NCBI RefSeq assembly: GCF_006352065.1
Contig: NZ_CP040915.1
Span: 1,302,001-1,366,000, forward strand
Origin: Georgenia yuyongxinii
GTDB taxonomy: Bacteria; Actinomycetota; Actinomycetes; Actinomycetales; Actinomycetaceae
Direction: 5' to 3'
Length of the DNA: 64,000 nt
Part shown: piece after piece, positions 33,029 to 36,776 of the stretch
Layout of the letters: each line of letters begins with the position of its first letter
Position numbering within the stretch: the first letter of the stretch is position 1
The notes under the pieces: generated by a model
Databases searched by the model: none
The model's input: only the letters and a program-made list of their open reading frames with translations
Told to the model about the DNA's origin: nothing
Made by a program: the position numbers and the translations under genes

Positions 33029-33090
33029 GCGGGGGAGCGGGTGTGGCGCAGACGTGGCGGACGGCACGCTCACGCCCGGCTCGCCCGGGT

Positions 33091-33119
33091 TTCGGCGAGG
33101 CCCACGGATCTGGCAGAAT
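33091..33119 (+). promoter_or_regulatory. Putative rpsP promoter
   Basis: TTCGGC (33091-33096), a 17-bp spacer, and CAGAAT (33114-33119) within TGGCAGAATG. The same TGGCAGA-T form appears before rplS. It leaves a leader of about 120 nt before rpsP, in which I see no recognised riboswitch. Confidence 0.4.
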
Positions 33120-33248
33120 GACCCGCTGTACTCGGCCCGGCCGGCCCCTCTCACCGACCGACGCCGTGTCCTGCGACCAACCGAGACGCCGAAACCCACC
33201 GGGGTCCCGCGCGGTCCAACCCTTTACGAAACCAGGAGCGACCACCTA

Positions 33249-33713
33249 GTGGCAGTCAAGATCCGTCTCAAGCGCATGGGCAAGATCCGCGCGCCGTACT
33301 ACCGCGTCGTCGTCATGGACTCGCGCAAGAAGCGCGACGGCCGTGCGATCGAGGAGATCGGCAAGTACCACCCGACCGAGGAGCCTTCGCTCATCGACAT
33401 CGACTCCGAGCGCGCGCAGTACTGGCTCTCGGTGGGTGCACAGCCCTCCGAGCAGGTTGCCGTGCTGCTCAAGGTCACCGGCGACTGGCAGAAGTTCAAG
33501 GGCCTGCCGGGTGCCGAGGGCACGCTGCGCACCAAGGAGACCTCCACCGAGGTCCTCGCCGAGGCGAAGGCCGCTGCGGTGAAGGCCGCCGAGGACGAGG
33601 CCGAGAAGCGCAAGGCGCGCGCCGCCGAGGCCAAGGCGTCCGCCGAGGCCGAGGCCCCGCAGGCCGAGGCCGCGGAGTCGGCCGACGCCGAGGCCCCCGC
33701 CGAGGAAGCCTGA
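33249..33713 (+). CDS. rpsP: 30S ribosomal protein S16
   Basis: S16 binds 16S rRNA during 30S assembly. The product is 154 residues from the GTG at 33249 ([20 protein letters not shown]). The conserved part is about 85 residues ([20 protein letters not shown], then [13 protein letters not shown]). It is followed by a long Ala/Glu/Lys-rich tail ([20 protein letters not shown] onward) typical of many actinobacterial S16 proteins. CCAGGAG provides the ribosome site. It heads the conserved rpsP-KH-rimM-trmD-rplS cluster. Confidence 0.97.
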
Positions 33714-33718
33714 TCTCA

Positions 33719-33958
33719 GTGCTGGCTGACGCTCTCGAGCACCTCGTGCGCGGCATCGTCGACCACCCGGACGACGTGCGTGTCTCCAGCCGCTCCCTGC
33801 GCCGCGGGGAGCTGCTCGAGGTCCGCGTGCATCCCGAGGACCTCGGCCGGGTCATCGGGCGCTCGGGTCGCACCGCGCGCGCCCTGCGCACCGTCATCGG
33901 GGCGCTGTCCACCTCCGGCCCGGTCCGGGTCGACGTGGTGGACACCGACCGGCGCTGA
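33719..33958 (+). CDS. khpA: KH-domain RNA-binding protein (KhpA/YlqC family)
   Basis: The product is 79 residues from the GTG at 33719, five bases after the rpsP stop. It is a single KH domain: LADALEHLVRGIVDHPDDVR, then LLEVRVHPEDLGRVIGRSGR, whose GRSGR is the nucleic-acid-binding GxxG loop, and a final ALSTSGPVRVDVVDT strand. KhpA-type proteins bind RNA, often with KhpB, and affect cell division and ribosome-related processes. The position between rpsP and rimM is the standard one. Confidence 0.93.
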   Translation: MLADALEHLVRGIVDHPDDVRVSSRSLRRGELLEVRVHPEDLGRVIGRSGRTARALRTVIGALSTSGPVRVDVVDTDRR

Positions 33959-34134
33959 GCCCAGCACCACCCGCAGACCCGGTCCGCACCCGCGGGCCGG
34001 GTCTGCGTGCACCCGGGCCCGGGCACACGGGTCCACCTCACCCCGGCCCGCATGTGCGGGTCCACCCCACCTGGCCCCACGTGCGGGTCCACCACCGCCC
34101 CGGCAACGGGGCCACGACAACCCAAGGAGCCGGC

Positions 34135-34758
34135 GTGCTGCTGACCGTCGCCATCATCGGAGGGCCCCACGGGCTCAAGGGGGAGGTCCGCCTCGACCTG
34201 CGTACCGACGATCCCCAGCGGCGCCTGGCCGAGGGCAGCGTCCTGGAGACCGAGCCCGCCGACGCCGGACCGCTCACCGTGGTACGGGCGCGGCGGTCGG
34301 CTGAGGCGACCTACGTGATCTTCGACGAGGCCCGCGACCGCACCGCCGCGGAGTCGCTGCGCGGGGTACGCCTCGTCGTCGAGAGCGATGAGGACGAGGA
34401 CGACGACGACGAGGGCTGGTACCCGCACCAGCTCGTGGGCCTGCGTGCGGTGCACGTCGACGGCCGTGAGCTGGGCACCGTCGCCGACCTCGAGCACCTG
34501 CCCGCCCAGGACGTCCTCGTCATCACCGAGCCCGACGGCGCCGAGGCGCGCGTGCCGTTCGTCGCCGAGCTCGTCCCGGCGGTGGACCCCGACGCCGGCA
34601 CGGTCACCCTCGACCCGCCCCGCGGGCTCTTCGCTGCCGACCCGGCCGACGAGGACGAGCCGGTCGCGGACGACGCCGGCGAGGACGAGCCGGTCGCGGA
34701 CGCCGCCGAGGACGAGCCGGTCGCGGACGACGCCGAGGACGCCGGCGGCCGGCCCTGA
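34135..34758 (+). CDS. rimM: Ribosome maturation factor RimM
   Basis: RimM assists 16S rRNA processing near S19 and late 30S assembly. The product is 207 residues from the GTG at 34135, with CAAGGAG upstream. The RimM N-terminal domain starts [20 protein letters not shown], and the PRC-barrel domain contains [20 protein letters not shown] and [20 protein letters not shown] with DPPRGLF. The last 35 residues are an acidic repeat, DEDEPVAD three times, arising from tandem DNA duplication at about 34660-34745. The spacer before it (33960-34125) contains repeated CGGGTCCACC. trmD starts one base after the stop. Confidence 0.95.
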
Positions 34759-34759
34759 G

Positions 34760-36241
34760 ATGCGCATCGACGTCCTGACGATCTTCCCCGCCTATCTCGA
34801 CGCACTCGACCTCTCACTCGTGGGCAAGGCACGCCGGGACGGTCTGCTGGACCTGCGCGTCCACGACCTGCGGGCCTGGACGACCGACCGCCACCGCACC
34901 GTCGACGACACACCCTTCGGCGGCGGCGCCGGCATGGTCATGCGGCCAGACATCTGGGGCAAGGCGCTCGACGACGTCCTCGCCACCGGAAGCGTGCCTG
35001 CTCCTGCCACCGAGACTCCCGCCGTCGGACTCGACCACCCCGCCCCGGCCGCCGCCGTCACGCTCACCCCCGCCCCTCGTCAGGTGCTGCTCGTGCCCAC
35101 CCCGTCGGGCGAGCGGTTTACCCAGGCCATGGCGGAGGACCTCGCCCGCGCCGACCAGCTCGTCCTCGCCTGCGGCCGCTACGAGGGCATCGACGCGCGC
35201 GTCGCCGAGCACTATGGCGCGTCCTCCTCCGTCGAGGTGCGCGAGGTCTCGCTCGGCGACTACGTGCTCAACGGCGGAGAGGTGGCCGCACTCGTCATCG
35301 TCGAGGCCGTCGCCCGTCTCCTGCCCGGTGTCCTCGGCAACCCGGACTCGCTCGTGGAGGAGTCCCACGGTGCGGCCGGCCTGCTCGAGTACCCGGTCTA
35401 CACGAAGCCACCGGTCTGGGCCGGGCTCGAGGTCCCGGAGGTCCTGACCTCCGGACACCACGGAAAGGTCGCGCGCTGGCGGCGCGACCAGGCCCTGGTC
35501 GGGACCGCGCGGCGGCGCCCCGACATGGTGGCCGCCCTCGACCCCCACCAGCTCGACCGCGCCGACCGGGTCGTGCTCGCCGGTCAGGGCTGGTTCGTCC
35601 CTGCCGGGGGCCGCCCCGCCCGGGTGACGGTGCGCCACGGGCGCGCCGAGGACGCCGCGGCGCTCGCCGAGCTCGCAGCGTTCACCTTCCCGCTGGCCTG
35701 CCCGCCCCACATGGCGGTCCAGGACATCCAGGCCTTCATCAGCGAACACCTCACGTCCGCGCACTTCGACGCGTACCTCGCCGACGCCGCCCGCTACCAG
35801 GTGCTGACGGCGGAGTCCGCCGACGGCGTGCTGGTCGGGTACACGCTCACGGTCCTCCCGCTCAGCGCCGACGAGCCGCCGTACGCGGACGACGTGGCCG
35901 CGCTCGTGACGGCACGGCCCGCCGCCGAGCTCAGCAAGGTCTACGTCCTGCCCGACTACCAGGGCTCCGGCGTCGCCGGGGTGCTCTTGGAGGCCACCGC
36001 CGCGGACCTGGCCGTTCGGGTGGTCGACGGGGTGGCGCCCGCGGCGTTGTGGCTGGGCACGAACAAGGCGAACCGCCGGGCGCAGCGTAGCTACCAGCGG
36101 GCCGGGTTCACCGTGGTCGGCACCCGCCGCTTCCGGGTGGGGGACAGCCTCGAGGAGGACCTCGTCATGGTGCGCGACCTGCGCGCCGGCGAGGCGGCGG
36201 AGGTGGGGGAGACCACAGGGCCGACGTCCGGCACGCGTTAG
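34760..36241 (+). CDS. trmD: tRNA (guanine-37-N1)-methyltransferase TrmD fused to a GNAT acetyltransferase domain
   Basis: TrmD methylates G37 of tRNAs with S-adenosylmethionine and prevents frameshifting. Residues 1-270 are a complete Trm[36 protein letters not shown] (49-63), [13 protein letters not shown] (136-148) and the knot with [11 protein letters not shown] (164-174, including the catalytic Asp). The frame then continues with no stop into a GNAT domain at about 287-475, with the acetyl-CoA loop [14 protein letters not shown] (397-410, QGSGVA) and the GNAT-typical [14 protein letters not shown] (441-454). TrmD is normally 230-280 residues; this one is 493. A domain fusion is the direct reading; the acetylation target is unknown. 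Confidence 0.95.
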
Positions 36242-36419: not shown

Positions 36420-36776
36420 ATGCAGACTCTGGACATCGTCGACGTCGCCTCGCTGCGCGACGACATCCCCGCCTTCCGTGCGGGCGACACCGTCAAGGTC
36501 AACGTCAAGGTCGTCGAGGGCAACCGCTCCCGCATCCAGGTCTTCCAGGGCATCGTGATCGCCCGCTCCGGCTCCGGCGTCCGCGAGACCTTCAAGGTCC
36601 GCAAGGTCAGCTTCGGCGTGGGCGTCGAGCGCACGTTCCCCGTGCACTCCCCGTCGATCGACTCCGTCGAGGTCCTGACCCGCGGTGACGTGCGCCGCGC
36701 GAAGCTGTACTTCCTGCGCGAGCTGCGCGGCAAGAAGGCCAAGATCAAGGAGAAGCGCGACACCGTCGCCCGCTGA
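36420..36776 (+). CDS. rplS: 50S ribosomal protein L19
   Basis: L19 lies at the 30S-50S interface. The product is 118 residues, the normal length. It runs from [20 protein letters not shown] through [20 protein letters not shown] and [20 protein letters not shown] to the basic tail [19 protein letters not shown]. It has its own promoter-like sequence and a strong terminator hairpin 20 bp after the stop, so it is probably transcribed both alone and with trmD. Confidence 0.97.

Follow-up and report, generated by a model that had tools for sequence, protein, structure and literature searches.

Is the trmD gene of Georgenia yuyongxinii joined to an acetyltransferase gene in one reading frame, and if so, what might the second enzyme do there? 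TrmD, the tRNA m1G37 methyltransferase, is usually a single-domain protein, and here whole families of bacteria carry an acetyltransferase on the same chain. An earlier note on the window (the whole stretch of 64,000 nucleotides that was analysed) had claimed that TrmD runs with no stop into a GNAT domain.

The trmD-GNAT reading frame

Translation of the frame at 34760-36241(+) gave 493 residues without a stop and a computed mass of 52.3 kDa, and the gene is single-copy in the genome (4,171,640 bases, one contig). The translation, Pfam and NCBIfam agreed with the claim of one open frame and placed the domain borders at residues 1-257 and 288-476. The features of the region are:

33054..33713, + strand: rpsP (S16) frame (NF011093; S16 match from residue 66, near 33249)
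33719..33958, + strand: gene of a KH RNA-binding protein, same cluster (NF002761)
34054..34758, + strand: rimM, longest frame (TIGR02273)
34760..35530, + strand: TrmD domain (tRNA m1G37 methyltransferase), residues 1-257 (NF000648, PF01746, match to 7kff)
35531..35620, + strand: linker, residues 258-287 (junction sequence; model helices 254-258 and 267-275)
35621..36187, + strand: GNAT domain (type 1, PaiA-like), residues 288-476 (Pfam; loop QGSGVA)
36188..36241, + strand: C-terminal tail, residues 477-493, and TAG stop (translation; low model confidence)
36420..36776, + strand: rplS (L19), the next gene downstream of the fusion (TIGR01024)

Family models confirmed rpsP, rimM and rplS, which the earlier note had named, as neighbours of trmD, together with the KH gene and, after rplS, the genes of signal peptidase I and of RNase HII; the cluster is of a usual kind. 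The trmD ATG lies one base after the rimM stop, so translation of the two genes may be coupled. No Rfam family matched at its gathering score between 32900 and 37900. Two tandem repeats were seen around rimM. At its 3' end (34645-34741) a 27-30 base unit is repeated about 3.5 times and encodes an acidic tail of DEDEPVAD units; between the KH gene and the rimM body (34028-34104) a 27-29 base unit is repeated about 2.5 times.

The TrmD half scored 290.7 bits over residues 1-257 with the TrmD equivalog model NF000648 (cut-off 220) and 226.1 bits with TIGR00088 (cut-off 195), and PF01746 (tRNA_m1G_MT) matched the fused frame at E 1.4e-54. The closest solved TrmD was 7kff from Corynebacterium diphtheriae (2.1e-78). 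Both this structure and 6nvr, from Mycobacterium abscessus, match residues 1-257 over their whole length, and compared with solved TrmDs the window protein has a 236-residue C-terminal addition. A variable insert lies at about residues 78-107 of the domain. By its family, the TrmD half would be expected to methylate N1 of G37 in tRNA. Ala206 (35375-35377) aligns with the Asp of the SDGLLE loop of 7kff, in a loop of varying length; the Asp before GLLE is presumably the putative catalytic Asp169 (Escherichia coli numbering), and TrmDs with Ala206 would use another residue if the aligned Asp is the catalytic base. The loop of the window protein, GAAGLLEYP, is also present in an unfused TrmD of family f8 (L024).

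The GNAT half matched PF00583 (Acetyltransf_1) over residues 338-450 (E 1.1e-8; 35.7 bits, gathering score 20.7) and PF13508 (31.1 bits, gathering score 27), and QGSGVA, proposed earlier as its acetyl-CoA loop, fits the pattern [QR]xxGx[GA]. Structure prediction of a monomer folded this half at pLDDT 91-98. Its top structural match was PaiA, at about 21% identity; RimI and N-terminal acetyltransferases were also among the matches, ranked below PaiA. The window GNAT shares the catalytic positions of the PaiA subclass (Bacillus subtilis PaiA, 1tiq; Lactobacillus curiae LcGNAT, 8osp), with E390, Y395 and Y445 aligned to Glu92, Tyr97 and Tyr142 of LcGNAT, but differs from these enzymes in being fused to TrmD. 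We compared these positions in 61 fused loci, which are not all independent because L003 and L061 are identical, and in 48 stand-alone domains. Tyr395 and Tyr445 were kept in every domain (61/61 fused, 48/48 stand-alone), Glu390 in 50/61 and 45/48, and the second Gly of the acetyl-CoA loop in 58/61 fused loci. With the residues of an acetyltransferase in place, the GNAT half looks like a working enzyme.

PaiA-subclass enzymes are described as acting on polyamines or canavanine (PMC10416765), and by analogy the GNAT half may have an amine substrate. This substrate class is a guess, because similarity to PaiA is low both in identity and with the PaiA equivalog model NF053587 (31.8 bits; cut-off 250). 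Two candidate roles were rejected. Spermidine made by a PF01564 synthase was set aside as the substrate, since a search with PF01564 found no spermidine synthase in the genome. The fused GNAT is also not a replacement for RimI, the ribosomal protein S18 N-acetyltransferase, because RimI is present as its own gene (101.8 bits with the rimI model TIGR01575, cut-off 86.4, a model with which the fused domain scored 24 bits).

Spread and origin of the fusion

We then asked whether the fusion is peculiar to the window. In the first sample, TrmD was found in 59/59 genomes, the source of the window included, and most TrmDs of the window's own family (f1, which we take to be the Actinomycetaceae of GTDB) ran on into a GNAT. 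A single alignment led from within TrmD into the GNAT in 123 of 151 f1 genomes, with open frames of at least 415 residues except in G478 (291 residues; alignment from residue 172). About 31 of these 123 rows showed one stop within the aligned stretch; those among them that were fetched (e.g. L010, L014, L017, L018, L020, L026) were open through both domains. Of the other 28 genomes, one had no match and 27 had TrmD with an alignment that broke off sooner; these 27 comprised 14 fusions, ten decayed tails, two losses and one contig end. The 14 fusions were recognised on inspection (L025, L150, L152-L154, L157, L158, L160, L205-L210; the frame of L150 is still open where the fetched sequence ends) and bring the total in f1 to 137/151. 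In family f13 the two halves were adjacent in 23 of 24 genomes (one had no match, and in G323 contig ends split them), and the 19 of these 23 that were fetched were all in frame. Both genomes of family f12 had the fusion.

Loci with both domains encoded them in one frame in 38/38 cases (four of these loci duplicate others among the 38) and in 6/6 cases of a separate set. This recurrence and the conservation of the architecture across the family exclude a lost stop codon or a sequencing error, which the earlier note had named as a possible source of the fusion. The four best relatives with species names were Georgenia, 66-74% identical in the GNAT part. In a class-wide search with the window protein at E <=1e-60, which sees only the window's type of GNAT, 88 of 296 genomes matched and the alignment passed residue 333 only in the window's own; the remaining 208 gave none at this E-value. 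TrmD fusions with further GNAT types may escape these searches.

The window's type of GNAT (type 1) also exists without TrmD. A relative of the GNAT part (E <=1e-18) was present in 137/396 genomes of an order-wide sample, and in the loci fetched from outside f1, f12 and f13 it was a separate gene. Among 80 named loci there were six fusions (four Georgenia, two metagenome bins) and 74 loci with no TrmD in the stretch, the stand-alone form occurring in Cellulomonas, Arthrobacter, Kocuria, Aeromicrobium, Leifsonia and many mycobacteria. In mycobacteria (e.g. L120, L136, L097) zapE, a RibD-like reductase gene and msrB lie near the separate GNAT gene. Recurrent neighbours were found mainly in this group and gave no pointer to the substrate. 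From gene order, we take the mycobacterial gene to be Rv2669 of the tuberculosis bacterium. Rv2669 is listed in PMC10407107 with its substrate unknown, and PMC6923341 reports it as up-regulated in one mutant.

A tree of 103 GNAT domains needed three changes between the fused and the separate state. The fused L041 fell among separate forms, and L177, a separate gene on a long branch from an f7 genome, fell among the fused rows, which could mean that the gene was transferred, that a fusion was split or that the tree is wrong at this point. With L177, L022 and L178 left out, holding the 56 fused rows as one clade gave a likelihood above that of the free search (p-AU 0.607). In the TrmD tree, one clade for the 69 rows with a fused, decayed or lost GNAT, set apart from the 21 remaining rows, was likewise not rejected (p-AU 0.659); in the free tree, the fused group also took in unfused rows of f3, f8 and f9. 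The type-1 joining probably happened once, in the common ancestor of f1, f12 and f13, a history with which the trees are compatible and which they do not prove.

A second fusion, and decay of the first

TrmD is also joined to a GNAT elsewhere. Among 20 TrmD loci of other families that showed long open frames, 17 stopped at 236-293 residues, and the three long TrmDs (L211 in f57, L212 and L213 in f17) all continued into a GNAT. L191 and L198 (f17) and L200 (f57), three of the 21 rows counted as unfused in the TrmD tree, had no stop within the fetched sequence and are fusions of this second kind (type 2) as well. A query spanning the junction matched 28/396 genomes of the order (27 in f17 and one in f10, the latter known from the search match only), and the f57 version used as a query matched 29/394 genomes of the class (22 in f45, six in f17, one in f57). 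In f45, which belongs to another order, 83/149 genomes matched; in 79 of them the alignment crossed from the end of TrmD to the GNAT, and in four it covered the GNAT part only. All 43 type-2 loci examined (L211-L213, L231-L270; 39 distinct) were in one frame.

In the type-2 fusion, too, a GNAT follows TrmD in the same frame, but it is of a different, short subfamily. Against 109 type-1 domains its best matches reached at most 51 bits, compared with medians of 89-166 bits within a type; the type-1 motifs TFPLACP and LSK were absent from all 39 distinct type-2 domains, and the nearest solved chain was 1y9k. Eight f17 genomes (G052, G139, G194, G274, G333, G342, G358, G418) carry a separate type-1 GNAT gene and a type-2 GNAT on TrmD. 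The grouping of L087 and L107 with f17 in the GNAT tree suggests that f17 lies near Humibacillus. The two GNATs are distinct subfamilies, so TrmD acquired a GNAT on at least two occasions. In a TrmD tree of 81 rows, the rejection of one clade for all fused rows was weak, with a p-AU of 0.043 that lies barely below 0.05, and type 2 as one clade was not rejected (p-AU 0.4, with a likelihood 10.5 lower); type 2 may have arisen in one old event, in several, or have spread by transfer.

The type-1 domain has also been lost. In ten f1 genomes (genera g20, g23, g50 and g126) TrmD kept an in-frame tail with a weak domain match or none (L143-L149, L151, L155, L156; proteins of 375-491 residues), and in two of the 151 (L141, L142) the GNAT was gone and the protein ended like an ordinary TrmD. 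The fused GNAT is therefore dispensable in those lineages. The general-base Glu was replaced by Tyr in 10/61 fused loci, perhaps through a change of substrate or a loss of activity; a Tyr at this position was seen in a group of f1 genera (L017, L019-L022, L029, L152-L154, L180, L208). The g20, g23 and g50 rows lie in the TrmD tree near genera with this Tyr, and the intact g50 row, L208, has it too. From these few lineages, it looks as if catalysis was lost before the domain decayed. In 16 close, partly overlapping pairs, dN/dS was 0.03-0.32 for TrmD and 0.10-0.34 for the GNAT, and the GNAT value was the higher in 14 of them. The fused half has decayed repeatedly, an illustration of how an enzyme domain dies while tied to another gene.

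What the fused acetyltransferase may do

We favour, with moderate confidence, a two-enzyme protein in which a stand-alone GNAT gene would have been joined in frame behind trmD. Elsewhere, TrmD was joined independently to another GNAT subfamily, and because two subfamilies were joined independently, an acetyltransferase on TrmD may have been favoured more than once. The substrate of the GNAT would most likely be a small amine or an amino-acid-like compound, and the enzyme could gain from a fixed ratio to, perhaps co-location with, the translation machinery. Where it is no longer needed, the domain would decay while TrmD keeps it in frame. Repeated joining is less easily put down to chance and raises the odds of a functional link; actinobacterial genomes commonly hold GNATs, so two GNAT fusions are less telling than two fusions of a rare family. 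Gene position and the second fusion hint at a functional link between the GNAT and translation.

The earlier note had proposed that the fusion could acetylate tRNA, ribosomal proteins or TrmD, which would link the maturation of tRNA with the level of acetyl-CoA; the amino acid charged on the tRNA would be a further target of this kind. The position of the domain on an RNA enzyme amid ribosomal genes, the second GNAT subfamily on TrmD in f17, f45 and f57, and the presence of RimI and N-terminal acetyltransferases among the structural matches fit such a target. The fused domain falls well short of the rimI model, however, RimI has its own gene, none of the 74 named loci with a stand-alone relative has trmD alongside, and 12 of 151 relatives have let the GNAT decay or go, and we consider a target in the translation machinery rather unlikely.

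A broader partnership of GNATs with TrmD in actinobacteria, in which the acetyltransferase would modify an amino acid or an analogue of the canavanine kind, either free or on the tRNAs that TrmD handles, with different GNATs recruited in different families, strikes us as improbable. If true, it would add a quality-control or detoxification arm to m1G37 modification, and the stand-alone relatives elsewhere would share that role.

The GNAT could instead be a passenger of a chance fusion, kept through its tie to an essential gene and of minor catalytic importance. The ten decayed tails still in frame, the two clean losses, the higher dN/dS of the GNAT and the Tyr in place of the general base all agree with this. 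Yet the clean losses also mean that the tail can be shed, both catalytic tyrosines are kept in every fused locus, the dN/dS of the GNAT does not exceed 0.34 and a second, independent GNAT fusion exists, which together make a passenger quite improbable.

Least of all do we expect the GNAT to be made mainly as a separate protein from an internal start at the GTG near residue 289. The earlier note had stated that the junction holds no start codon with a ribosome site. The part about the ribosome site stood, since the G-run upstream has no AGGA, GGAG or GAGG core; the part about the start codon did not, as residues 289 and 291, where the GNAT domain naturally begins, are both coded GTG. GTG recurs at residue 289 in 23/61 and at residue 291 in 28/61 fused loci, but in high-GC genomes valine in such a strand is often coded GTG. 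A start codon with a ribosome-site core was found in the junction of 13/61 fused loci, and nine of the 61 have no ATG, GTG or TTG there. A separate GNAT product is unlikely in general, with Georgenia as a possible exception, and as the main product it is highly improbable.

The favoured two-enzyme protein makes a link between m1G37 and acetylation a testable idea, since two different GNATs are found on TrmD. Because the same GNAT is a separate gene in many actinobacteria, a substrate found once would name the gene widely.

Many TrmD structures have been solved with inhibitors. In a search to which most of the subscription literature was closed, we found no published description of a TrmD-GNAT fusion; a 2007 survey of SPOUT proteins names only the Tm1570 kind of TrmD fusion (PMC1829167), and the word "acetyltransferase" is absent from the main texts of PMC11187310 and PMC1829167. 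A TrmD with a second enzyme is already known in TrmD-Tm1570, and the GNAT partner seems new. TrmD-Tm1570 (PF01746-PF09936) was counted in 66 proteins in one tally, has a solved structure (8b1n), and is described as having a second domain of unclear role (PMC11187310). PF09936 was absent among the seven Pfam matches of the window's fused frame up to E 1. In both fusions the chain goes on from TrmD into another enzyme domain, one that also occurs alone; they differ in that this domain is a SPOUT methylase in TrmD-Tm1570 and a GNAT in the window protein.
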